Shown piece by piece: positions 6,773 to 30,227 of a DNA stretch of 32,659 bases (position 1 is the stretch's first letter; each line of letters opens with the position of its first letter). A model generated the notes under the pieces. It saw nothing but the letters and a program-made list of their open reading frames with translations. It did not search any database and had not been told where the DNA came from. A program made the translations under genes and the position numbers. Origin of the DNA: Vulcanimicrobiota bacterium (GTDB taxonomy: Bacteria; Vulcanimicrobiota; Vulcanimicrobiia; Vulcanimicrobiales; Vulcanimicrobiaceae); the NCBI GenBank assembly GCA_019236975.1, contig JAFAHZ010000257.1, positions 1-32,659 of the forward strand, written 5' to 3'.

Positions 6773-8176
6773 CTACGGTCCGTGCGGCATCCCGGTCGTG
6801 GCGTGAAGCAGGTGCCCGAGGGTGGCGTTGAGCTCGGCGGAGTTTTCAACTTGGGTTAGCGGGGCGACCAGGGTGGGCGTTCGCGAGCGTTCCTGGAAGG
6901 GCAGCATCGGACCGCCTGCCGCAAACTGGCTCGCCGCATCGCCGGCCAGGCTCCGAAAATACAGCTCCGCGCCCAACGCGTTCGCCCAGCCAAACTCGCC
7001 GCGCGTGTATCGCCAATAACCGCCGGGATAGAAGCTCTCGTGAAAGAGCCCGGCATCGCCGTTGGTTTCGGCCAACGTCGTGATCGCTTCGGCCACTTCG
7101 GCCGAAGAGGTGGCCGTGAGCGCACGGCCGATGATGCCGAGCGGCCACACGTAGCCGTACGGCGTATGCGGGCTTCCCAGCCCTTGCGCGTAGCGGCCCG
7201 AGAAGTAAAACGGATTGTCCATGCTCAGCGTAAACGCGCGCGTGCTCAGATACGTCGGATCGTACGCCGAGCACCAATCGAGGTAGGGCAGCGTCGTCAG
7301 GTTCGGAATGTTCGCGTCGTCCATGAGGTTGTAGCGGCCGTAGCCGTCGGTCTCGTACGCGTACGTCCACCTTTGGCGCACGGAATCGTAAAAGCGGCCG
7401 TACGTCAAAACGCCGCGCACCACGCGCGCCGACAGCGTCGCTGCATCTTGCGCCAGCTCCCCGTCGCCGTATCCGATTCGTGCGAGCGCGGCGACGTCGC
7501 GCAACGCGACGGCCGCAAACGCGTTTTGTGGAACGTTGAGCCGGTACTGGACCGGATCGTCCGAAGGTCGAAACGCCCCCCAAATCATGCCGGTATCGTC
7601 GTTATAGCGGTCGTCGGTGTAGACGGCGTACGGATACGTATAGCGGTTGCATCGGCGGTGGTGCTCTTCACACGTATAGGTGAAGACGATCTGCCGCAGT
7701 GCGACGTGCAAATCGGGCGTGAACATGCTGCGATCGCGCGTTACGCGCCAGTACACCCAGGCCAGCACGACGGGCCACGACAGCGAATCGATCTCCCACT
7801 TGCGCTCCCACGCGTGGTAGTCGGCTTGAAAGGCGTTAGCGTAGACGTCGGTCAAGATCGAGCGCGCCTCGCGCTGGATCACGCCGCCGAAACGGGCGTG
7901 CAGTACCGGATACGCACGCTGAAAGCGGACGTACGGAATCGTTTGTGCGGCCGCATCGCGCATCCACATCGCCGGGATGTCGCCGGTTTGCACGTATGTG
8001 GTCGTATCGTCTTCGAGAAAGAAGTCGGTGAACAACGTGTGGAAGAGGGTCGCCGTTTGTATGTCGCGCGTACGCTTGCCCGTCATCGGGACCAGCAGCG
8101 TCTGTGCGGGCGCCGGGAACGGTACGACGGCGAAGGCCGCCAGCACCATTATGGCGACGGCGCGGCGCAGCCTCAA
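6773..8176 (-). CDS. exported glycoside hydrolase family 125 (exo-alpha-1,6-mannosidase), copy A
   Basis: 467 residues. The proposed start is TTG (8176), overlapping the TGA of the upstream gene (TTGA). It gives a proper signal peptide with a basic n-region (MRLRR...), hydrophobic core and APAQT cleavage region, whereas the internal ATG at codon 10 would remove the charges. GH125 hallmarks are TGDIPAMWMRD (64-74), FRPSDD (202-207), ETDGYGRYNLMDDANIPN (275-292), GLGSPHTPYGYVWPLG (332-347) and GLFHES (376-381). By family knowledge the catalytic acid is an Asp and the base a Glu. The best candidates are D206/D207 and E380. GH125 enzymes release terminal alpha-1,6-linked mannose with inversion and need no metal. 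The protein is a close paralogue of the product of 9282-10676 and shares with it a C-terminal tail of about 40 residues after the catalytic domain. Confidence 0.92.
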   Translation of the reverse strand: MRLRRAVAIMVLAAFAVVPFPAPAQTLLVPMTGKRTRDIQTATLFHTLFTDFFLEDDTTTYVQTGDIPAMWMRDAAAQTIPYVRFQRAYPVLHARFGGVIQREARSILTDVYANAFQADYHAWERKWEIDSLSWPVVLAWVYWRVTRDRSMFTPDLHVALRQIVFTYTCEEHHRRCNRYTYPYAVYTDDRYNDDTGMIWGAFRPSDDPVQYRLNVPQNAFAAVALRDVAALARIGYGDGELAQDAATLSARVVRGVLTYGRFYDSVRQRWTYAYETDGYGRYNLMDDANIPNLTTLPYLDWCSAYDPTYLSTRAFTLSMDNPFYFSGRYAQGLGSPHTPYGYVWPLGIIGRALTATSSAEVAEAITTLAETNGDAGLFHESFYPGGYWRYTRGEFGWANALGAELYFRSLAGDAASQFAAGGPMLPFQERSRTPTLVAPLTQVENSAELNATLGHLLHATTGMPHGP

Positions 8177-11716: not shown

Positions 11717-12934
11717 TCAAAACGCGGTGACGCCGTTAGGCGTGCCCCAGCCGGTCGGGCCGTTATATCCGTGGCCGGCGCTGCAGATATACGCATAGAC
11801 CGCCGGGCACGTTCCGTTGCGGCCTTTATCGATGTGATTGAGCGCCGGTGTCGCCGCCGCGTCGTAAATCGATTTTGCAAAGGTCGCCGAAAGCTGCCTG
11901 GCGTTTCCGGCCAACCCGTATGCCGCTGCGACGATCGGCGTGGCGGCGCTCGTGCCGCCGAACGTCACCCACCCGCCGGTGCGGCTCGCGCCGACCGGCG
12001 TGGAATCGTAGACCGCGACGCCGGTTAACGGATCCGCGACCGCTGCAACGTCGGCGGCGGCCCGCGTCGGGCAACCATCGTCGGTTTGCCAGGCCGGCTT
12101 GGCGACGAAATCGCTGCAGCCGCTGCCGGTCGCGCCGATATCGGCGTCGTTCCACACGCGTTCCTCCCAGCCGCGAGCGTTCGAAGCGCGCGCGAGCGTC
12201 GTACCGCCGACCGCGACGACGGTTGCAAACGATGCCGGCTGTTCGGGAAAGTAACCGTCGTCGCCGGTGCCGGCAACGACGATCGCCTTCCCGCGCTGAT
12301 CGAAGTTCGCGTCGTACGGAGCGTATTCGTATCCGCCGTATGAGTTGCTGATGACGCTGGCGCCCAAGCGTGCGGCGGTGCGCACGGAAAAGCCGAGATC
12401 GGGCGCGGAGCTGCTCGTCGCTTCGACCAGCAAGATCTTGCAGTGCGGGCACACCGCGGACACCATGTCGAGATCGAGGGACATCTCGCCCGTCCATCCG
12501 CGGTCGGCTCGTGGATACGATCCGGCAGTGCCCTGCTCGTTCACTTTGCGAAAGCAGCCGTTGCTCGCCGTGCACGCCGGCAATCCGAAGCGCGCGCGAT
12601 AAACGAGTAGATCGCTTTCGGCACGCGGATCGTCGTAAGCGCCGACGATTGCGACGACCGACGATTTTCCACGCGTCGACGACGGAAAGCGATACGCCGA
12701 TTGCAAGTCGCGCGGCGTGTAGCCTTTTAACGCGGTACGGCTCGTCAGCGCCCACGCAAAACACTGGAAGGCGCCGCGAGTGCGGACCGGGCAAAGCGGT
12801 GTCGCCGTACTCGACGCTCGCAGCGGCGCGGCCGCAAAGACGTCCGACGGAACGGGCGGCGCGCCGGCGGGAATCGCGCACCCGCCGAGGGCCGCGCCCA
12901 ACACGATTGGAACGAGCAATCGCAGAGGCTTCAC
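11717..12934 (-). CDS. S53 (sedolisin/kumamolisin) peptidase, lipoprotein, short-propeptide form
   Basis: 405 residues from GTG 12934, chosen because AGGAGG lies about 9 bases upstream and a lipoprotein signal begins there ([19 protein letters not shown], lipobox LGGC, Cys19). A longer open frame is antisense to the mutase gene and is rejected. Catalytic positions of the family are visible: E150 and D154 in GEMSLDLD, oxyanion Asp D225 in GTGDDGY, and nucleophile S329 in [18 protein letters not shown] (72-81) and [11 protein letters not shown] (99-109) are typical starts of the S53 catalytic domain. The usual propeptide of about 150-180 residues is absent, since only about 50 residues lie between the lipid Cys and the domain. 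Extra cysteines (48, 58, 121, 127, 162, 165 and others) suggest disulphides in an oxidising compartment. S53 enzymes are often acid-active endopeptidases. Confidence 0.9.
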
Positions 12935-12969
12935 AGGATGCGCCCTCCTCAAGCAGTCATCGGGCCGTT

Positions 12970-12991
12970 TGGCGGGAGGCCGAAGCCGCCA
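12970..12991 (+). other. hairpin in the leader of the mutase gene
   Basis: TGGCGG (12970-12975) and CCGCCA (12986-12991) are perfect inverted arms around a 10-base loop. It lies in the 141-base gap between the divergent S53 peptidase and mutase genes, which is otherwise without a clear -35/-10 pair. It could be part of a structured leader. I could not match it to a known riboswitch class. Confidence 0.35.
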
Positions 12992-13075
12992 GGACCCCGG
13001 CCGGAAAGGCGGTTGCTTGGCGCGAGGCTTCTTGGGAAAATGGCAAGCCACGTCGAACCGAGGCGATTCTACATT

Positions 13076-14767
13076 ATGAAGCAAGTATTGAGGGACCCGG
13101 CGGCCGAACCGGCGGGAGGCGCGAAGCGCGAAGTGCCGGCACCGGCGCGCGCCGGCGCGCGCAAGGGCCCGGGATCGGGTGCCGTCGACCGAACGATCTC
13201 CGACGTTCCGCTCAAAACGGTCTACGGGCCGAACGATATCGCCGAGCTCGATCTTACCCGCGACCTCGCCTGGCCGGGCGAGTTTCCGTACGTCCGCGGC
13301 ATCCATGCCAACGGATACCGCGACCGGCTTTGGACGATGCGCCAGTTTGCGGGCTTCGGCACGGCCAAGCAGACCAACGAGCGCTATCACTTTCTGCTCG
13401 AGCAGGGACAGCATGGCTTGTCGGTTGCATTCGACATGCCGACGCTGATGGGTTACGACTCCGACGCGCCGCAAGCGCGCGGGGAAGTCGGCAAGTGCGG
13501 CGTCGCGATCGACTCGCTGGCGGACATGGAAGCGCTCTTCGACGGCATCGACATGGGCGATATCACCACGTCGATGACGATCAACGGCCCGGCGGCGATC
13601 GCCGTCGCGCAATACGTCGCCGCGGCCGAGAAGAAAGGCATTTCGCGCCACAAACTGGGCGGGACGATTCAGGCCGATATCCTCAAGGAATACATCGCGC
13701 AGAAAGAGTGGATCTTTCCGCCGCGCCCGCACATGCGGGTCATCGTCGACATGATCGATTTCTGCACGCGCGAGATGCCGAAGTGGAATACCATTTCGAT
13801 CTCGGGCTATCACATTCGCGAAGCGGGTTCGACGGCCGCGCAGGAACTGGCGTTTACGCTGGCCGACGGGTTTGCGTACGTCGAAGCGTGCGTGGCGGCC
13901 GGCATGAACGTCGACGATTTCGCTCCGCGCTTGTCGTTCTTTTTTAACTCGCACATCGATTTCTTCGAAGAGATTGCGAAGTTCCGCGCGGCGCGCCGGA
14001 TTTACGCCCGCCATATGCGCGATAAATACGGCGCCAAAGATCCGCGCTCGTGGAAGCTGCGCTTCCACACGCAGACCGCCGGGTGCAGCGCGACGGCGCA
14101 GCAGCCCGAGAACAATATCGTTCGCGTCGCCTTCGAGGCGATGGCGGCCGTTTTGGGCGGCACGCAATCGCTGCACACCAACTCGATGGACGAAGTGCTC
14201 GCGCTTCCGACGGAAAAGTCGGTCGAGATCGCGTTGCGTACCCAGCAGGTGCTCGCGTACGAAACCAACGTGACCAACGTGGTCGATCCGCTCGGCGGCT
14301 CGTATTACGTCGAGGCCCTTACCGACGAGATGGAACGCCAGGCCGAAGCGTATTTTTCGCAGATCGAAGAGTACGGCGGCGTCGTCGAAGCCATCGAAGC
14401 GGGTTTCTTCCAAAAGGAAATCGCCGAAGCCAGCTACCGCTATCAGCGTTCGATCGAAAGCAAAGACCGCGTGATCGTCGGCGTGAACGCCTTCGTCAAA
14501 GAGGAAGAGTCGCACGACATCGACCTTCTCAAAATTACCGAAGAAACCGAACGCGAGCAGGCGCGCGCCGTGCAAGCCGTTCGTTCGCGCCGCGACCCCA
14601 ACGCGGTGCAGTCGGGCCTCGAACGGCTGCAGCGAGCCTGTCGCGACCCCAAAGATAATCTCATGCCGCACCTGATCGATTGCGTCAACGCGTATTGCAC
14701 CGAAGGCGAAATCGTCGATGCGATGGTTGCAGTGTACGGCCGGTACACCGAGCGAAGCATCTTCTAA
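13076..14767 (+). CDS. icmA: adenosylcobalamin-dependent acyl-CoA mutase, catalytic subunit, isobutyryl-CoA mutase type
   Basis: 563 residues. The start at ATG 13076 is a choice: ATG 13040 (12 codons longer) is equally open, and GAGGCG lies about 9 bases before 13076. The TIM-barrel substrate domain of the MCM family is complete and ends without a B12 domain, as in IcmA or small archaeal McmA. Family blocks are [80 protein letters not shown] and [13 protein letters not shown]. Substrate-selecting positions are F91 (codon 13346-13348) and Q209 (13700-13702). Methylmalonyl-CoA mutase has Tyr and Arg here (Y89/R207 in Propionibacterium), isobutyryl-CoA mutase Phe and Gln, and 2-hydroxyisobutyryl-CoA mutase Ile and Gln. 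The 118-residue spacing is identical. It most likely interconverts isobutyryl-CoA and n-butyryl-CoA. Automated annotation will probably call it methylmalonyl-CoA mutase. Confidence 0.9.
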
Positions 14768-14790
14768 GTCGGCCGGAAAGCGAGAGAGCA

Positions 14791-14949
14791 ATGCCTTGGA
14801 GAACCGATCTCGAGCGTTACCGCGTACGGCGGACGCTCTCGGAAGTAAAACGCAAACTCGAAGAAGCGCTACGTCTCAGCCGTCTGCAAAACGGCACCGG
14901 CGCGGAAAGCCATAATGGCAGCAAGACCGTTACGAATCGTCATCGCTAA
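14791..14949 (+). CDS. candidate small basic helical protein between the mutase subunits
   Basis: 52 residues, starting MPWRTDLERYRVRRTLSEV. It begins 23 bases after the catalytic-subunit stop and overlaps the first codons of the B12-subunit gene in another frame. The middle (SEVKRKLEEALRLSRL) would form an amphipathic helix, and the composition is strongly basic. A weak GAGAG precedes the ATG. I recognise no family. Points in favour are the otherwise unexplained 147-base gap and the coupling geometry. Against are the small size and the ease of random open frames in GC-rich DNA. It may simply be a spacer that couples translation of the two subunits. Confidence 0.3.
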   Translation: MPWRTDLERYRVRRTLSEVKRKLEEALRLSRLQNGTGAESHNGSKTVTNRHR

Positions 14950-20724: not shown

Positions 20725-21941
20725 CGGCTTTTCTCGCTTCGTTTGCCGCCGCGCGTGCCGCCGTCGAGCGTCCAAACCAGCTCGATCGCCGCGTCGACTC
20801 GATCTCGGCGAGCGCGCTTCTCACGCAGCCGGCAATCGCTCTCGTAGATCCGGCTCGTCAGCGAGCGGCGAGTCGCCTCGCGCACCTCACGCTTCCCGGC
20901 TGGCTCGCAACGGCGCTCTTCGAAGCGATCGCGCTTGCGTATTTTTGGAGCACCGGCCGCGCGGCGGCGTTTCGCGATTGGCTGCGCAGACGGATTACAT
21001 CGGAGTTCGCCGTGCGGTTCCTCTTCGGCGCGATGCTGGGACTCATCGCTCGAGCCGCCGCGCTGCCACCCGCTTTCTACCTCTATCGCGTCGAGCGAAT
21101 CATGGGTCTATCCGCCGAGCTGACGCGAACGTGGGCGCTCTTGTGGATCGCGCACACGCTGTTGGCGATGGTCGTCGCGGGTCTGCTGGCAGCGCTCGTG
21201 CTGTGGCTCGTCGATCGCACGCACCAATGGTACGTCTTTACCATTCTCATCATTCTCGCGGTGAGCGTGGCGTGGTCGTTTGCGAGTCCCTATTTTCAGG
21301 TTCCCGGCTCGCGCGCGATCGAGCCGCTTTCGAGCCCGCTGGGCGCGCAGATGGAGAGCTTGTTTGCTCGTGCCGGGCTACCGAACTTTCCGGTCTACGT
21401 GGAGCGCTCGCGCAACTCGCCGGTCGATCGGGCCGTCGTGGTCGGGCTCGGGGCGTCGCGGCGCCTCGTACTGACCGATACGCTCATCTCCGGCAACACG
21501 CCGCCCGAGGTTCTCTTCCTCGCCTCCGGCGCGACGGGGGCCGTCGTCTTGGGCAACCCAATCTACATCGCCCTCATCGAAGGCGGTATCGTGATCGTCT
21601 TTTCAGCGTTGGCAGTCGTCATCGCCGACCGTATCGGTTTTCGCCGTGACGACGATCCGCTGTCGCGACTGGCGCTCGTCGGATCGCTGCTGGCGATCGT
21701 TTATCTCGTCGCCGTTCCGGTGCGCAACGCCTCGCTCCGGTCGTACGACCTCGATGCGGATCGTTATGCGGTCCGTCTCACCGGCGACCGCGTCGCGGCC
21801 GTTCGCGCTCTCGTGCGGGAGGCGGACCAGCATATCGAAGAAGTCTGTCCTGAAATGTCGTCAACGTTTTTTGTCTACGCCCATCCGAGCCCCGGCGCGC
21901 GAATCGCTGCCATCAATCACGTTCCCAGCGGGTGCCCGTAA
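20679..21941 (+). CDS. Ste24/M48-like integral membrane protein lacking the zinc site
   Basis: 420 residues from ATG 20679, inside the end of the GGDEF gene. The layout follows CAAX prenyl protease 1: an N-terminal membrane domain with about five hydrophobic segments (8-28, 72-92, 111-135, 152-180, 184-203), a peptidase-like part (about 225-290), then two more segments (294-318, 330-350). The linker EPLSSPLGAQMESLFARAGLPNFPVYVERSR resembles the family region before the active site. Where HEXXH should stand (after NTPPEVLFLA) the chain reads SGATG (283-287), and the third ligand Glu in the ExxAD region is Asp357 (YDLDAD). All metal ligands are therefore gone or changed, and it is probably not a protease. 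Its stop lies 2 bases before the receptor gene. A scaffold or regulatory role is possible but unsupported. Confidence 0.75.
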   Translation: MARELRSFLVAALVVTAFLASFAAARAAVERPNQLDRRVDSISASALLTQPAIALVDPARQRAASRLAHLTLPGWLATALFEAIALAYFWSTGRAAAFRDWLRRRITSEFAVRFLFGAMLGLIARAAALPPAFYLYRVERIMGLSAELTRTWALLWIAHTLLAMVVAGLLAALVLWLVDRTHQWYVFTILIILAVSVAWSFASPYFQVPGSRAIEPLSSPLGAQMESLFARAGLPNFPVYVERSRNSPVDRAVVVGLGASRRLVLTDTLISGNTPPEVLFLASGATGAVVLGNPIYIALIEGGIVIVFSALAVVIADRIGFRRDDDPLSRLALVGSLLAIVYLVAVPVRNASLRSYDLDADRYAVRLTGDRVAAVRALVREADQHIEEVCPEMSSTFFVYAHPSPGARIAAINHVPSGCP

Positions 21942-21943
21942 CG

Positions 21944-24900
21944 ATGCGCCGCTGCTGCGCCGCTCTACTCGTCGCCATCCTTGCGTGCTGGTGCGTTCGC
22001 GCCGGAGCCTCGACCACGGGAAGCCTTCGCGGTCGCGTGACCGATGCGGCGACGAACCTTCCGATCGCCGGCGCTCGCGTCACCGCCGATTCGCCGTCCC
22101 AAATTGCGACGGCGGTCACCGACGTCTCCGGAACGTTCTCGTTTCTCGCGCTCGCCCCCGATTCGTATACCCTGCGCGTTGAAAAGAGCGGTTACGAACC
22201 CGCGTCGCAAGCGGGCGCGGTGGTCTTCGCCGACCAAGCGGCGTCGTTCGTCATCGCGTTGTCGCCTGCGTTGCGCACGATCGCGCGGGTCGGTACGCGC
22301 TCGTCGTCGAGCTTGGTTCGCTCCGGTACGACGAGCGACGTCTATTCGGTGAACGCTGCCGGCCAAAAAGCCGCACAGTCGGTTGCCGGATCGGGTTCGC
22401 TCAATCAGGCGTACGGCGCGATTGCGAGCGTGCCGGGCGTCTCGGTGCCGTCCGGTCAGCAAGGATGGTACCAGAGCGTCTACATTCGCGGCGGCGATAC
22501 CGATCAAGTGGCGTACGAGTTCGACGGCGTGCCGGTCGTGCGCCAATCGGACTACGCGCCGATCGTGACGCTTTCCGCGCTCGGCCAGCAGGAAGTGCAA
22601 GTCTATACCGGCGGGACGCCGGCAACCTCGAACTCCTCGGGGCTGGCCGGCTACATCAATCAGGTCATCAAGACCGGCACGTTTCCTGGCTATGCCGACG
22701 TCGATGCGTCGATCGGTACGCCGCAGTTTTACCACGATCTCTCGGTGGAAACCGGCGGCGCGACGCCCGACCGTCTCTTCTCGTATTACGTGGGACTCGC
22801 GGGTGCGAACCAATCGTATCGCTACATCGACCAATTCAACGGTGCAGGCGATCCGCGCTATTTCTATCCGTTACAAATTCAAACCGGCAACTCGCTGTAT
22901 CAAGTCGTGGACGGCAGCTGCCTGCTCAAGGGAGCCTACGCTCCCTGCAAAAACGATCCGAACTTCGGAACGCTGTATTCGCCCGGTAACTCCTACTTTC
23001 AAGCGACCGGATTCGATCGCGAAAACGTGATGAACTTTCACGTCGGCATTCCGCATCGCAGCGGCGGAGGCCGCGACGATATTCAGCTGCTGTACGTCAC
23101 CGGAAACATTGCGACGCAGTTCTACAGCTCCTATAACGACGTCTACTCTGGTCAAGTGTTTCCCGGGGGCGTACCGTATTACGACTCGACGTATTACGAC
23201 GGAGCGCTCGGGGCGCCGCCCAACCCGTCGCAGCTCGTCGTAGGCCGCTTTCCAAGTAGCCCGGCAGGCCGCATTTACAACAATATCACCGTAGACGGTT
23301 CCACCACGACGCCGTCGCTGATCGGGCTCAATCAACGCGACGGAAACGGCAACAACTTCTCGGTCGAAAAGCTGCAGTACCAGCGCAACTTCAACAGCAG
23401 TTCGTACCTTCGCGTCCTCGCCTACGGCGAGTACTCCTCGTGGCTCATCAACGGTCCAAATGCGACTCAGTTCGTCTTTTCGGCCGATCCAGCCGAGTAC
23501 GACGTTCTGGCCAACATTTACGGCGGCAATGCGATTTACTCGAACCAGCTGTCGTCGAAGAACCTGCTGACTGCCAGTCTCGCATACACGCTGCAGACGC
23601 TTTCCGACTACAACGCACAGTATGCCAGCGTCGGCGGCAATCCGGTGCCTCCGACCGGGTTAGGCACGCTCGTGTCGAGTTACGTGGGCGCCAACGGAAC
23701 CTGCTTTAACTATAAGACCGGGGCCCCGTGGAGCTGCTTCGACGCCGGAAGTCAAGGCGGAGCGCTCAGCGGGCCCTACTCCGGCTGTCCGTCCGCGGCA
23801 AACTACCCCGCGATCTGCTTGACGCCCGGCAACGCGCCCGCCGGAACGCCTGCCGCGCGCGCCGGGGCGCACTGGATCATGACCGAAGACGGCCGCTCGG
23901 CGCAAATCGATACGGTCGATCCGTACTTCAGTTCGCTCGCGCTCACCGACGTATGGACGCCCGACGACAAGTTGCTCGTCAACGTCGGCGCTCGCGTCGA
24001 CGATTTCAAGTACACGTTTAGCAATACGGCCGCGGGCTATCCGGCGCGCGCGTTCTGGTTTGCGGCTTTCAATCGCGAGTACTGCGGCGCGCCGGCGCAA
24101 GATCCGGTCTGGCGCTGGAACGGCAGCAGTTTCACCGCATGTCCGGCCGGCTTCCAGCCGATGACGGTTCCGGGCGTCGGCTTGTACAACTCCGGCATAC
24201 CCAGCTCCATTTCGCAGTGGGAATTTCAACCGCGCCTCGGATTGACGTATACGCTCAGCACGAATACGGTACTGCGCGCGTCGGCCGGCAAGTACGCGCG
24301 CGCGGCGGAAACGGGGAGCGGCTCGCTGGAGCAAAACGCCGTCCAGCAAGACTTGCCCGACCAGCTGTTGCCGTTCTATCGCCTCGGCTATCACACGCCG
24401 TACCATCCCGGCGTGCCCGATACGTCGAACAACTTCGACGTCTCGTGGGAGCAGCATATCAAGGGCACGCAGCTGTCCTTCAAGCTTTCACCGTTCTATC
24501 GAGCGACCAGCAATCAGGTGCAGTTCTTCGCGACCGATCCGGCCACCGGAATCGGAACCGGGCTCAACGTCGGAACGCAGCATTCGTCCGGCGTCGAGCT
24601 TTCCGTGCAGGACGGCGACTTCACGAAAGACGGCCTTTCGTGGCAGCTTTCGTACACGTATACGAACAGCACGATCAAGTACGCGCCGATATCGAACGGC
24701 GTCTCAGTACTCGACAGCTTCAACGCTGCTATCGAGCAATACAACTCCTACACGCGCGGGTGTGCCGGAGCGGCTTCGAAATCGCAGCTCTGCGGCAGCG
24801 GCGCCTACGCGGGGAACGCGCAGCCGGTTTTCAACAATGGCAAAGGCGTCGTCGTCGACAATCCATACTATAACGGTTCGCCGCAGCCGCTTGTCGACCG

Positions 24901-25549
24901 CAACGGCTGGTTCACCACCTACGACTTCATCCCGACCGCGTTCAATAATGCCAACGGATTCGCCGTCCCCAACGTTGCGACGCTGATCGTGAACTACAAG
25001 CACAAGAAGTTCAGCATCACACCGAATCTGACGTACACGTCGGGCTCGTTCTACGGCTCGCCGTTGTCGTGGGGAGGCTACGTGCCGCAGTCGTGCACGC
25101 AGAGTCCGAACTTGACGCCGGCGGCCCCCGGGGCCAGCTGCAGCGGCAGCTACACGACGCCGACGGGGGCCACGTTGAACTCCGGGGTGATCTTCACTCC
25201 CGACCCGTATACCGGCCGCTTCGACGGGCTGGGCAGCCTGCAGCAGCCGTGGCAGCTCTCGGTGAACCTGCAAGCCAATTACGACGTCAGCTCGAACGCA
25301 TCGGTCTCGGTCGTGGCTTCGAATCTTTTCAACGCGTGCTTCCAGCGCGGGTACGCGTGGGATGACTCGAACTTCTGCATGTACTCAAACCTCCCGTCGA
25401 ACATCTTGGCGCCCGCGGGTAACTTTTTGCGCACGCCGCCCGTTCAACTCAAGTATCCGTACGGGCCGTGGTCGAATCAGAACGAAGTCGGGTACACCGC
25501 CGTCAAGCAGCCGTTCCAGTTTACCGCGGCGCTGCACCTGCGGATCTAA
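21944..25549 (+). CDS. TonB-dependent outer-membrane receptor with N-terminal carboxypeptidase-regulatory-like domain
   Basis: 1201 residues from ATG 21944. A GTG 12 bases upstream overlaps the previous gene and is less likely. A signal peptide (MRRCCAALLVAILACWCVRAGAS) is followed by a CarboxypepD_reg-like beta-sandwich (TTGSLRGRVTDAATNLPIAGARV through about residue 110). The plug domain (about 130-240) contains YIRGGDTDQVAYEFDGVPV, and a long beta-barrel full of Tyr/Asn/Ser-rich strands runs to the C-terminus (FQFTAALHLRI). No obvious TonB box is seen before the plug. Large receptors of this build, common in Acidobacteria and related soil phyla, import or bind bulky ligands. The ligand is unknown. 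Many paired cysteines in the loops (for example CLLKGAYAPC) suggest disulphide-stabilised surface loops. The stop is 12 bases before the amidohydrolase ATG, so the two are probably co-transcribed. Confidence 0.92.
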   Translation: MRRCCAALLVAILACWCVRAGASTTGSLRGRVTDAATNLPIAGARVTADSPSQIATAVTDVSGTFSFLALAPDSYTLRVEKSGYEPASQAGAVVFADQAASFVIALSPALRTIARVGTRSSSSLVRSGTTSDVYSVNAAGQKAAQSVAGSGSLNQAYGAIASVPGVSVPSGQQGWYQSVYIRGGDTDQVAYEFDGVPVVRQSDYAPIVTLSALGQQEVQVYTGGTPATSNSSGLAGYINQVIKTGTFPGYADVDASIGTPQFYHDLSVETGGATPDRLFSYYVGLAGANQSYRYIDQFNGAGDPRYFYPLQIQTGNSLYQVVDGSCLLKGAYAPCKNDPNFGTLYSPGNSYFQATGFDRENVMNFHVGIPHRSGGGRDDIQLLYVTGNIATQFYSSYNDVYSGQVFPGGVPYYDSTYYDGALGAPPNPSQLVVGRFPSSPAGRIYNNITVDGSTTTPSLIGLNQRDGNGNNFSVEKLQYQRNFNSSSYLRVLAYGEYSSWLINGPNATQFVFSADPAEYDVLANIYGGNAIYSNQLSSKNLLTASLAYTLQTLSDYNAQYASVGGNPVPPTGLGTLVSSYVGANGTCFNYKTGAPWSCFDAGSQGGALSGPYSGCPSAANYPAICLTPGNAPAGTPAARAGAHWIMTEDGRSAQIDTVDPYFSSLALTDVWTPDDKLLVNVGARVDDFKYTFSNTAAGYPARAFWFAAFNREYCGAPAQDPVWRWNGSSFTACPAGFQPMTVPGVGLYNSGIPSSISQWEFQPRLGLTYTLSTNTVLRASAGKYARAAETGSGSLEQNAVQQDLPDQLLPFYRLGYHTPYHPGVPDTSNNFDVSWEQHIKGTQLSFKLSPFYRATSNQVQFFATDPATGIGTGLNVGTQHSSGVELSVQDGDFTKDGLSWQLSYTYTNSTIKYAPISNGVSVLDSFNAAIEQYNSYTRGCAGAASKSQLCGSGAYAGNAQPVFNNGKGVVVDNPYYNGSPQPLVDRNGWFTTYDFIPTAFNNANGFAVPNVATLIVNYKHKKFSITPNLTYTSGSFYGSPLSWGGYVPQSCTQSPNLTPAAPGASCSGSYTTPTGATLNSGVIFTPDPYTGRFDGLGSLQQPWQLSVNLQANYDVSSNASVSVVASNLFNACFQRGYAWDDSNFCMYSNLPSNILAPAGNFLRTPPVQLKYPYGPWSNQNEVGYTAVKQPFQFTAALHLRI

Positions 25550-25561
25550 AGGAGCGTTGCC

Positions 25562-27301
25562 ATGAATCGACGTCGCATGATTGCAGGCAGCACGGCGGCC
25601 GCCGCGGCGGCTGCGGTACGATCGCGTGCGTTTGCCGCGACGGATCGTGCGTCGTTGATCGTCCGAAACGCCGTCGTGTATACCGCTCGTAGCGACGGCG
25701 CCGTTGCCGAAGCCATCGCCGTCGCCGGAAACCGGATCGTCGCCGTCGGATCGAACGCGACCGTCGATGGGTATCGCGGTTCCGCGACGCGCGTCGTCGA
25801 CGCGCGCGGCGGAATGGTGCTGCCCGGCCTTATCGATACGCACACGCACTTCGTCGACGGCAGCGTGATGCGCACTCAGGTCGACTTGAGCGATGCCGAG
25901 AGTGCCGAGGAAGTCGTCGCGCGGCTTAAGGCATACGCACGCGCCCATCCGCACGACGCGTGGATTCTCGGCGGCAACTGGCAGTACGACGCCTTTCCGC
26001 CGACCGGGCTGCCCAACAAAGCGCTGCTCGACCGTGCCATTCCGGATCGTCCCGCCGCGCTCGACGCATTCGACGGCCACTCGATTTGGGCGAACTCCAA
26101 AGCGCTGCAGATCGCCGGCGTGACGAGCGACAGCGGCGTTTTTAAAGAGGACGCGCAGCACCTGATCCGCCGCGTCATACCCGAAATGTCGCGCGAACTG
26201 CTGCTGAAAGACATCGCCGGCGGCATCGCCGCGGCCAACGCGCGCGGCGTCACGTCGGTACTCAACGCGAGCGGCGATCTCGACCAGATGGATCTCTACC
26301 AAACGCTGCACGATCGCGGACTGCTGACCCTGCGCACGACGACCGCCTATTCGGCGGGTGCGGGAACGCGGCACACCCTTTCGCCCGAAGAACTCGAGGC
26401 ATTCGAAACTGCCCGGGAACGCTACCGTGGCGACTGGGTGCGTGCCGGCGTCGTGAAATTCTTCATGGACGGCGTCGTGGAAACCGACACCGCCTACATG
26501 CTGCGGCCGTTCGCCAACGACCCGGGCGTGCGCGGCGAGCCGTACTATCCGGCGCAGCGTTACGCGGCGATGCTGACCGAGCTCGACCGTCGTGGATTCG
26601 CCGTAATGACGCACGCGATCGGCGATGCGGCGGTTCGCGCAACGCTCGACGGCTATGCGGCCGCCGCGGCGGCGAACGGTCCGCGCGACCGGCGCTGGCG
26701 CATCGAGCACATCGAAGTGTGCGACCCGGCCGACGTTCCACGATTCGCAGCCACCGGCACCGTTGCGTCGATGCAGCCCTATCACTTTTGCTGCCCGGCG
26801 CCCGACGGCAGCGATACGTGGGATCGCAATCTCGGGCGCGCGCGGTGGCCGGAAGGTTTCGTGTGGCGCGATATCGCCGATACGGGCGCGATGATGGTGC
26901 ACGGCAGCGACTGGCCGGTAGTGACGATCGATCCGCTGATCGGCGTTTACTCGGCGATCACGCGCGAGGATCCCAACGGTCTGCCGCGCGGCGGATGGTA
27001 TCCGCACCAGCGCTTAACGCTCGACGAAGTCCTCGCCGGCTATACGCGCAACGCCGCGCGCGTTGCCTTCATGGAGAATCGTATCGGCACGCTCGAAGCC
27101 GGAAAGTTCGCCGATCTCGTCGTGCTCGATCGGGATTTGCGCCGCGTCAGCCCGCAGGAGGTGCTTCACGCGAATATCGAGATGACGCTCGTCGGCGGCC
27201 GCGTCGCGTACGAGGGGAAACGCGCACCGAATCGCGTCGCGGAGCTTCCTAAGCGTCCCGGCGACGCGTGTCTGTGCCGGCGATTCGCCTCACGCCGCTA
27301 G
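25562..27301 (+). CDS. YtcJ-type metal-dependent amidohydrolase, exported (Tat-like signal)
   Basis: 579 residues. AAAGGAG at 25548-25554, overlapping the receptor stop, sets the ATG at 25562. The N-terminus MNRRRMIAGSTAAAAAAAV resembles a twin-arginine signal, so folded metalloprotein export is likely. Amidohydrolase_3 features are DTHTHF (H94, H96), DGHSIWANSKAL, VKFFMDG with the bridging Lys, MTHAIGDAAVRATLDGY, WRIEHIEVCDPAD and HGSDWPV with the catalytic Asp. Enzymes of this family hydrolyse amides or related C-N bonds (N-acyl, imide). The substrate is unknown. The last eight codons (CRRFASRR) lie in a 26-bp repeat whose second copy is at 30234-30259, so the natural C-terminus may have been altered. 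Adjacent to the TonB receptor, it may act on what the receptor imports. Confidence 0.92.
   Translation: MNRRRMIAGSTAAAAAAAVRSRAFAATDRASLIVRNAVVYTARSDGAVAEAIAVAGNRIVAVGSNATVDGYRGSATRVVDARGGMVLPGLIDTHTHFVDGSVMRTQVDLSDAESAEEVVARLKAYARAHPHDAWILGGNWQYDAFPPTGLPNKALLDRAIPDRPAALDAFDGHSIWANSKALQIAGVTSDSGVFKEDAQHLIRRVIPEMSRELLLKDIAGGIAAANARGVTSVLNASGDLDQMDLYQTLHDRGLLTLRTTTAYSAGAGTRHTLSPEELEAFETARERYRGDWVRAGVVKFFMDGVVETDTAYMLRPFANDPGVRGEPYYPAQRYAAMLTELDRRGFAVMTHAIGDAAVRATLDGYAAAAAANGPRDRRWRIEHIEVCDPADVPRFAATGTVASMQPYHFCCPAPDGSDTWDRNLGRARWPEGFVWRDIADTGAMMVHGSDWPVVTIDPLIGVYSAITREDPNGLPRGGWYPHQRLTLDEVLAGYTRNAARVAFMENRIGTLEAGKFADLVVLDRDLRRVSPQEVLHANIEMTLVGGRVAYEGKRAPNRVAELPKRPGDACLCRRFASRR
27276..27301. repeat. 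26-bp direct repeat, copy 1
   Basis: Matches 30234-30259 at 24 of 26 positions (differences at the 8th and 21st base). The core TTCGCCTCACGC is identical, and a GGCGATTCGCC hairpin is included. It forms the end and stop codon of the amidohydrolase gene. Confidence 0.75.
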
Positions 27302-27380: not shown

Positions 27381-30227
27381 ATGCAGCGATGTGCAATCGC
27401 CGTTCTGGGCGTGCTGTGCGCCTGTAGCGGATCGCTGGGCGGTCAGGTCCTACCCGGCCCTCCGGCGCCGGCAGTTGCGCCGGGGGAAAACGCCGGAAAT
27501 CCATTGGCGCCGGAGCACGCTAACGCGCAGCTCGAAGTGCAATTGACGATTCCGCCCAAGCGCCTGCGCGCGGATTACGTTTCGCCCGCTACCCATTCGA
27601 TCGTCATCGAGGAAGGAAGTACGACGGTCGGATCCTTCGATACCGGCCGGGGGTCGAAAGGCTGCACGCACGGCGACCGCGGCGCGACGGTCTGCACCTT
27701 CACCATGGGAGCGATTGCCGGCAAGCACGAGGCGTTCGCCGTAAAGACGTACAGCGCGCCGGACGGCCGCGGTCACCTGCTGGCGAGTGCTACCGTCAGC
27801 CAGACGATCGTTGCGAACAAACTCAATAAGCTGAAACTGACGTTGGACGGCGTCGTGGTGTCAATCGAGATCTCGCTCGCAAATCCCGATCCGTTCGCGG
27901 GCGTGCCGGTCACGATGCCGGTCACGGTGGCAGCAAAGGACGCATCGGGAGCGACGATCGTCGGCCCGGGAACGTATATCCCGGCGATCGCCCTCACCGA
28001 CAGCGACGCTTCGGGCGCGACCAGACTCTCGACAACGAAGGTAGATGGCGCCTCGACGAAGGTGACGCTAACCTACGACGGCTCGAGCAGCTTAACCAGT
28101 GCGACCATCTCGGCAACCGCACCCGGGATTGCGAGGGGAAGGATTACTCCGGCGACGTTAACGCCGTTTGGCGCGACGCAGGTTACTACAGCACTCCAGA
28201 ACGTCGAATCGTATTATTTAACCTTGCCGCATACCTCGATATCGAGCGATCTGCAAGCTCTCGCCGCGCACATGACGGCTTCGGGCCAGTTTGCCGGCGC
28301 GACCGTTGCGACCGGCGGCGTCGACGCGACCTTTTCAAACGGGGCGCACGCGCTGATCTTCGCCGATAAGCCCGAAGACCTCGCCGGTCCGTACTCAAGC
28401 GGCGCGAAAATGACGAGCGCGCGAGAGGCTGCAGTGTGGGTCCGCAACGGACCGTTGAGCGCGCCGAACCCGCACGAGGTCGCGTTTTTAGTCAACGAAT
28501 CGGGCGACAGTGCGTTCCACCCGCAGCGCCAACAAGCGTTTGCCGCGGCTTTTACCACCGAAGGATTTACCTCGGGTGCGGGCTACGGCGTTGACGCGCT
28601 CGACGTCACCCTCGATAATATCGCCGCGCTTGGTACGAGTCACAACATCGATTTTTTGGACATGGCCACGCACGGAATGGTCGATCACGACGGTACCTAC
28701 TGGTGGCAATCCGATACGCAGGTTTCGAACGCGTCGCTGCAGGCGTATTTCAAGGATCTAGCGGGGAACAACGTTGCGTTTTCCATCCCACTGGCTGCCG
28801 GCTACTCAAGCAAACCGTTTGTGGATTTTGCATTCGGCGCCGGTTTCTTGGCGAACCACCTCGCGTTCAATTCGGGCGCGATCGTCGACAACCAATCCTG
28901 CTATGGGCAAAGCGCAAGTATTAAACACGGTCCTCTCGACTTGAAGTCTCGCGGCGTCCTCCGGTATTACGGGTGGACGGAAGTGGTCGAGGACCAAGAT
29001 GCAGACGGTACCGACGCGTTCATGCTCGATCGATTGCTGGGCGAACAGTCGCCAAGCAAGACCGGGCTCGACCAATATGCGCCACAGCGCACGCCTCCGC
29101 AGCGGCCGTTCGCACTCGATCAAGTGAATGCGATCATGCAAACGGAAGGCCGCAGCGGGCCGCTCTCGGGAAATTCGTACGGTCTTCCCTACACGATCTC
29201 CGATATCACCAACGGACGCTCGACGAAACGGTACTCGACGTTTTACGAGAGTGATTTCGGGGGCGAGCTCGTTGCGAATCCGCCGATCGAATATGCCCTG
29301 CCGTCGATCGAAGCCGTCGGCGTGAGCGAAGGGACGCCATCGCTACTCTATATCGCGGGCACGTTCCCCGCGACAACGGGCAGCGTCACCATTACCAACT
29401 CGTTCGGCACGGCGATGCCGGCCCCGACGTCGTGGACCCCCACGCTGATCCAGGTACCGATACCGGCAACCGGCGCCGGTGCGTGGGGAGTCGTTTCGGT
29501 AACGAGCGGCGGTATCGCAAGCAATGCCGTGCCCTTAACGCTGTGGACCGGAAACCTCACGTACCAAGCCAGCGGAACGCTGACGTCCTGGGCCACCGAC
29601 GCAGGCAGCGGGTCGTTCAACGTCGGAGCCAACGTTTACGTTGCCGTCCGCGCCGACGTTCATCCGACCGTCGTTACGATCGACGCCACGCCCGAACCGC
29701 AGAACCTCGTTTTCAGTAACGTGGCGCCCAATTCGAGCGCTGCCGGCACGGCCTACAACTGGGCGTTTACGAGCTCGGCCGGCGATTGTCCGGGATGTAA
29801 CGTCACCATCGCGATAGCCTCACCCGCCCCAACGATGGCTCCGTTTAACCAACTCAATATGTCCTTCGCGTATCCGGGACCGTCGTGCAACAACGGATCC
29901 CCCGGCCCGCAGGGCGATGCCAACCCGAACGTGTTTTGCGCTCTCCTGCAGTTCGACACGACTTCGGGCAGTACGTGCTCGACCAACAGTCCATCCAATG
30001 AGTATTGTGACACCATCGGCGGTCTCTTCAGCAGCGTCGGCGATAAGGTCGTGCTTACGATGGATCCTACGACGTACGCGCTGACGATCGATGCGACACC
30101 GTACGCGCTTTCGGTCGGTAACGGCGTCACGGGCTCCGGAACTGCGACCGTGAGCGGCCCGTTCGCGGCGCCCCTCTCTCCTCCCGACGCGTCGACGCCG
30201 GCGCTGCGCCGGCACCGCCGACCGTAA
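27381..30227 (+). CDS. large lipoprotein: YVSP module, possible caspase-like domain, IPT/TIG-like domain
   Basis: 948 residues from ATG 27381 (AGGG just upstream), giving a short lipoprotein signal (VLCAC, Cys15). Earlier in-frame starts at 27342/27345 would push the signal 12-13 residues inward. Residues about 52-135 share PKRLR, YVSPATHS (66-73), CTF and TYSAPDG with the lipoprotein at 285-2051, and DASGATIVGPG (187-197) matches a second shared block. Residues about 360-530 show a pattern like clan CD peptidases: strand VAFLVN, helix RQQAFAAAFTTEGF, then hydrophobic strand NIDFLDMATHG with H431, and hydrophobic strand AIVDNQSC with C507. Residues about 640-730 resemble an IPT/TIG immunoglobulin-like domain (LPSIEAVGVSEGTPSLLYIAGTF, split). 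The C-terminal 200 residues are Thr/Ser/Pro-rich. It is probably surface or periplasmic. Protease activity is inference from motif order only. The gene is flanked by 26-bp direct repeats. Confidence 0.8.
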   Translation: MQRCAIAVLGVLCACSGSLGGQVLPGPPAPAVAPGENAGNPLAPEHANAQLEVQLTIPPKRLRADYVSPATHSIVIEEGSTTVGSFDTGRGSKGCTHGDRGATVCTFTMGAIAGKHEAFAVKTYSAPDGRGHLLASATVSQTIVANKLNKLKLTLDGVVVSIEISLANPDPFAGVPVTMPVTVAAKDASGATIVGPGTYIPAIALTDSDASGATRLSTTKVDGASTKVTLTYDGSSSLTSATISATAPGIARGRITPATLTPFGATQVTTALQNVESYYLTLPHTSISSDLQALAAHMTASGQFAGATVATGGVDATFSNGAHALIFADKPEDLAGPYSSGAKMTSAREAAVWVRNGPLSAPNPHEVAFLVNESGDSAFHPQRQQAFAAAFTTEGFTSGAGYGVDALDVTLDNIAALGTSHNIDFLDMATHGMVDHDGTYWWQSDTQVSNASLQAYFKDLAGNNVAFSIPLAAGYSSKPFVDFAFGAGFLANHLAFNSGAIVDNQSCYGQSASIKHGPLDLKSRGVLRYYGWTEVVEDQDADGTDAFMLDRLLGEQSPSKTGLDQYAPQRTPPQRPFALDQVNAIMQTEGRSGPLSGNSYGLPYTISDITNGRSTKRYSTFYESDFGGELVANPPIEYALPSIEAVGVSEGTPSLLYIAGTFPATTGSVTITNSFGTAMPAPTSWTPTLIQVPIPATGAGAWGVVSVTSGGIASNAVPLTLWTGNLTYQASGTLTSWATDAGSGSFNVGANVYVAVRADVHPTVVTIDATPEPQNLVFSNVAPNSSAAGTAYNWAFTSSAGDCPGCNVTIAIASPAPTMAPFNQLNMSFAYPGPSCNNGSPGPQGDANPNVFCALLQFDTTSGSTCSTNSPSNEYCDTIGGLFSSVGDKVVLTMDPTTYALTIDATPYALSVGNGVTGSGTATVSGPFAAPLSPPDASTPALRRHRRP
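30197..30213. repeat. perfect GC hairpin at the end of the large lipoprotein gene
   Basis: GCCGGCGC-T-GCGCCGGC, 8-base arms around one base (in practice a 7-bp stem with a 3-base loop). It lies in the last codons of the lipoprotein gene and shares GCCGGCGCT with the repeat copy at 30234. No T run follows, so it is not a classical terminator, though it could slow transcription between the converging genes. Confidence 0.5.

Follow-up and report, generated by a model that had tools for sequence, protein, structure and literature searches.

Caspase-like proteases form a class that is best known for its part in cell-death and defence signalling, and CHAT (PF12770), as found in TPR-CHAT/Csx29, is one of the caspase-like domains. 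The caspase/haemoglobinase fold that defines clan CD has a parallel sheet with strands in the order 2-1-3-4. In this clan the His and the Cys close strands 3 and 4 (PMC4357240), and the residue numbers given in the same paper place the two residues 42 positions apart in caspase-7 and 49 in MARTX-CPD. The central domain of the lipoprotein described here agrees with this order of elements, with a His after one conserved hydrophobic strand and a Cys after a later one, and its His-Cys spacing of 76 residues exceeds both of these values.

We have analysed a stretch of 32,659 nucleotides (hereafter the window) from a soil bacterium whose genome amounts to 3.19 Mb in 336 contigs and which belongs to the Eremiobacterota (WPS-2), a phylum that is hardly represented in culture. 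On the evidence set out below, we consider it likely that one of its genes encodes a Sec-exported, lipid-anchored cysteine peptidase with a clan CD-type active site closest to that of CHAT and with a putative His431-Cys507 dyad.

Domain layout and distribution of the lipoprotein

The gene (Table 1) is one uninterrupted frame in which the ATG at 27381 codes for residue 1, and the homologues align with it in frame. By inspection, the N-terminal sequence MQRCAIAVLGVLCAC agrees with a lipobox (LCAC) whose Cys is C15, so that the protein starts with a signal peptide of the bacterial lipoprotein type. This candidate lipobox indicates lipid anchoring only, which could be at either face of the membrane.

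Table 1. Features of the lipoprotein gene, with positions in the window
Feature	Residues	Positions	Strand	Basis
Whole gene, 948-aa lipoprotein with putative caspase-like central domain		27381..30227	+	Open frame; homologues in frame
Signal peptide, lipobox LCAC, candidate lipidated Cys	C15	27381..27425	+	Sequence; full-length homologues likewise begin with a lipobox-like Cys
N-terminal domain	~16-265	27426..28175	+	Matches in relatives; missing from alignment A1
Alpha-alpha-beta-beta-beta subdomain, N-terminal to core	~268-330	28182..28370	+	Conserved in homologues
Putative caspase-like core	~365-600	28473..29180	+	Alignments A2/A3; profile match to CHAT
Candidate catalytic His, followed by invariant G432	H431	28671..28673	+	Invariant in 8/8; in register with CHAT ATHG motif
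Candidate nucleophile	C507	28899..28901	+	Invariant in 8/8; sole Cys of central domain
Post-Cys block, DLKSRGVLRYYGWTEVV...TDAFML	~520-549	28938..29027	+	Best CHAT register among 261 gapless
IPT/TIG-like domain	~648-727	29322..29561	+	42% match to TIG-bearing protein
C-terminal Cys-containing domain	~728-935	29562..30185	+	Alignment columns and Cys counts

The N-terminal domain has a distribution of its own. When the whole protein was used as the query, matches to residues 1-265 were obtained in 38 of 60 relatives, with up to 8 copies per genome, nearly all of them lying within residues 1-320 and ending near 245-320; across the relatives this domain is joined to many different C-terminal parts, and the proteins that are homologous in the central domain lack it (alignment A1). 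A diverged copy is carried by the window gene at 285-2051 (28% identity, E 2e-7), and neither of the two window proteins scanned has a Pfam match in this domain. Further paralogues, each with a different C-terminal part, are found on three contigs (G000:C19, C45 and C110). This pattern of matches marks the N-terminal 265 residues as a separate, widely shuffled lipoprotein domain. Because the N-terminal and the central and C-terminal parts differ in distribution, we view the protein as this shuffled domain fused to a rarer module, which consists of the small alpha/beta subdomain, the core, the IPT/TIG domain and the Cys-containing C-terminal domain.

Within the rarer module, the small subdomain is a possible prodomain. 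The IPT/TIG-like domain that a sequence-only reading had placed downstream of the core is borne out through a relative: residues 654-748 are 42% identical (E 9.6e-5) to a protein of genome G056 that carries a Pfam TIG domain at the equivalent place (PF01833, E 2.1e-15, residues 346-423). The homology to IPT/TIG is established by way of this TIG-bearing protein, as the 948-aa protein has no direct match to PF01833 and lies below Pfam detection. In the C-terminal domain Cys 836, 853 and 866 are invariant, a fourth Cys is present in the homologues, and these residues probably form disulfides.

Homologues of the central domain (~268-651) number seven, at 44-49% identity, in four other Eremiobacterota MAGs, all from the window's family and from three genera, the window's own included; the named records are Candidatus Eremiobacterota/WPS-2 MAGs, mostly palsa isolates. 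The homologous proteins are of about 750-800 aa, one being a contig-end fragment; their N-terminus is short and contains a lipobox-like Cys. No central-domain homologue was found in the one other genome of the window's genus that was searched, the profile run against 149 genomes of the phylum gave nothing beyond the eight known members, and no relatives were found in the plasmid and viral collections; the weak profile matches in the phylum set that were inspected proved unrelated or had no convincing motif. The 124 synonymous against 41 non-synonymous codon differences between two of the homologues (L060 and L034) are evidence of purifying selection.

A comparison of the gene neighbourhoods of the lipoprotein and its homologues revealed no conserved neighbour. 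Directly upstream lie a TonB-dependent receptor with a carboxypeptidase-regulatory-like domain (21932-25549, +) and then a PF07969 amidohydrolase (25562-27301, +), a pair that was not seen beside the homologues of the central domain. Elsewhere in the window, a long open frame (11717-14791, -) encodes towards its C-terminal end a subtilase-like peptidase (PF00082, E 7e-9), whose serine motif GGTSAATP looks sedolisin-like on visual inspection.

Conservation of the candidate dyad

The sequence-only reading had proposed a caspase-like arrangement from a His followed by Gly and a Cys further on. Its residues are placed correctly, with H431-G432 in NIDFLDMATHG, C507 after GAIVDNQS, VAFLVN at 367-372 and TTEGF at about 392-396. 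As a bare pattern, HG...C is not above chance: a hydrophobic stretch plus HG followed by a Cys occurs in 12 of 130 open segments of at least 300 aa from other loci in a stricter form and in 42 of 284 in a looser one, and the 948-aa protein itself fails both regular expressions on account of the short hydrophobic stretch ahead of C507. What makes the arrangement worthy of attention is therefore the conservation of H431, G432 and C507, and not the pattern itself.

These three residues are invariant in all eight members, and the variation in H431 or C507 that would speak against the proposal was not found among the homologues. The order expected for clan CD, a conserved His and then a conserved Cys, is thus present in the eight sequences. 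In each member the central domain contains no Cys other than C507, the remaining ones being the lipid Cys and those of the C-terminal domain, and C507 is retained even in L035, where the preceding residues have changed (SLGAC, against DNESC, and DN(E/Q)S in the other members). Conservation alone is no proof, since eight close relatives, here at 45-90% identity and with 59 of 281 domain columns (about a fifth) invariant, make invariance partly expected. H365 is likewise invariant in the seven members that cover it, as is, in all eight, a second His ten residues before H431 (H421, 28641-28643).

The IPT and Cys-containing C-terminal domains, as well as the fact that no conserved gene neighbour was seen, would suit a purely structural, adhesin-like lipoprotein of the cell envelope without enzymatic function. 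However, one would not normally expect the core of a structural domain to keep an unpaired Cys and a His without variation, and we regard such a role as highly improbable.

Database searches, structural models and comparison with CHAT

Searches of the central domain against Pfam, NCBIfam, PADLOC, PHROGs and PDB sequences returned nothing significant; one match to phrog_4344 (E 0.0011), found in a single member and located in a variable linker, was taken as chance. In Pfam no member matches a clan CD family significantly, none matches the CHAT model PF12770 at E<=1, and Peptidase_C25 (PF01364) is matched neither by any member nor anywhere in genome G000, while the families C14 (PF00656) and C11 (PF03415) gave neither a Pfam nor a profile match. 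Since these Pfam comparisons gave no match, we have not filed the family under any named one, and its earlier description as undescribed is borne out as far as Pfam, NCBIfam, PADLOC and PHROGs are concerned.

The structural models add little to this. AlphaFold, run on the eight sequences, reached a pLDDT of 36 for the window domain and of 43 for the core of the homologue L032, and in the first model only the ~268-330 subdomain exceeded 60; CHAT rows were kept out of the input alignment, as including them would have been circular. The L032 core model begins with strand-helix-strand-helix-strand before the His. Foldseek and VIA-align with this poor model gave nothing significant, and the absence of clan CD chains from the VIA-align rows is uninformative given the quality of the query; caspase-11 chains among the insignificant fold matches (E 1.7) were discarded as evidence.

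A profile-profile comparison was carried out by gathering CHAT, C14 and C11 domains within the phylum, building profiles from them and aligning these with the central-domain profile in HHalign, using as controls an alpha/beta hydrolase family (a deliberate strand+HG decoy), glutamine amidotransferases and the N-terminal domain. The score against CHAT is 30.2, whereas 200 column shuffles average 14.3 (s.d. 2.7, maximum 24.4), and C11, C14 and the three controls score 10.9-18.0; for reference, the true within-clan pair C14-C11 scores 24-27. The HHalign probability is 15-37%, over 38 columns that cover the His half only. The unguided alignment places DFLDMATHG on CHAT yvhfATHG, so that the ATHG motif is in register with that of CHAT, and this His register still ranks first among 277 without the H and G columns. 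The Cys half alone gives no independent profile signal against CHAT, and its register without the C column is only in the top 21%. After the Cys, the best of 261 gapless registers for the block ...AGVGRYLGWTKEVDGNDADETDAFIF falls on the CHAT block ...AGARSVVASLWSVPDESTAELMVDFY (pattern AGA..V..SLW.V.D....FY), a register that had been proposed by eye prior to scoring.

In summary, the domain resembles CHAT in the ATHG after a hydrophobic strand, in the order of His before Cys and in the AG....v..W.v.D....F...l block after the Cys, and differs from it in the long His-Cys spacing, 76 residues against some 46 in our consensus for CHAT. Unlike TPR-CHAT proteins, the 948-aa protein would be lipid-anchored, and it has an IPT domain and no TPRs. 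The caspase-like reading is partly supported and more probable than not: the profile match to CHAT around the His speaks for it, and the lack of a Pfam match to clan CD against it.

One way of accounting for these data is an unrelated alpha/beta fold, in which HG...C and the match to CHAT would reflect convergence on a hydrophobic strand plus ATHG, the domain having another role, such as that of a different hydrolase or transferase or in the binding of a metal or ligand. The frequency of the bare pattern by chance, the shortness of the HHalign match, the invariance of H421 and the fold searches, which brought no confirmation from a model of pLDDT 43, are all compatible with it. Yet the CHAT score tops all shuffles and all unrelated families, the strand+HG decoy included, and the post-Cys block also finds its best register in CHAT, from which we judge this explanation unlikely. 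A CHAT-like relationship is thus the better account, and the central domain is probably a CHAT-like branch of clan CD that constitutes an undescribed, narrowly distributed family.

The profile evidence fits equally well a caspase/CHAT-like fold that is no peptidase in vivo and acts as a binding or sensing module, with the dyad kept for another reason, and pseudo-variants of bacterial caspase homologues are indeed documented (PMC6426788). In those documented pseudo-variants the dyad positions have been replaced, whereas here both are invariant in 8/8 members, and we consider a non-peptidase module distinctly unlikely.

The likeness to gingipains that had been suggested is weak and finds no support in the sequence, as no member matches Peptidase_C25 and the best signal is to CHAT. 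As in these C25 enzymes, a prodomain-like part, a catalytic domain (here a putative one) and an Ig-like domain follow one another in a protein with an export signal, and it is only this domain order that agrees; unlike them, the protein is a lipoprotein, and no other C25 sequence evidence accompanies the missing PF01364 match. With the bacterial caspase homologues (C14) and clostripain (C11) the domain shares a His and then a Cys, each after a hydrophobic strand, but it gives no Pfam or profile-profile signal with either, whereas C14 and C11 genes elsewhere in the phylum are clearly recognisable. Several other families of the phylum (f4-f16) have clostripain genes in multiple copies, whereas in the window's family (f1), to which the proteins described here belong, such genes were detected at the threshold used in one genome only (G022). 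A 393-aa lipoprotein (L088/L143, G062:C42, ~6924-7532 in the contig, -) of another, distant family of the phylum has an apparent IPT-like stretch and then a C14/C25-type caspase domain (PF00656, E 9.4e-11; PF01364, E 3.8e-5), and by these matches is an independent lipoprotein-IPT-caspase arrangement.

A putative envelope peptidase of one lineage

As a lipid-anchored cysteine peptidase of the kind proposed above, the protein would first be exported and lipidated, and would then cleave a peptide substrate by means of the His431-Cys507 dyad, within a fold predicted to be caspase-like as a whole. The small alpha/beta subdomain would act as a prodomain, the variable linker that separates it from the core (~331-364) being a plausible site of maturation or processing, while the IPT and C-terminal domains would probably serve to display the enzyme or to bind partners. 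There is about an even chance, in our estimation, that these proteins make up a new clan CD peptidase family limited to one Eremiobacterota lineage, which would be lipid-anchored and CHAT-related, with a long His-Cys insertion and a prodomain-like subdomain of its own, and which is here joined to the shuffled lipoprotein domain. If so, this would not be a new kind of system but a family of envelope proteases that escapes the present family libraries, and it would add an exported, lipid-anchored branch to the caspase-like protease class in a little-cultured phylum.
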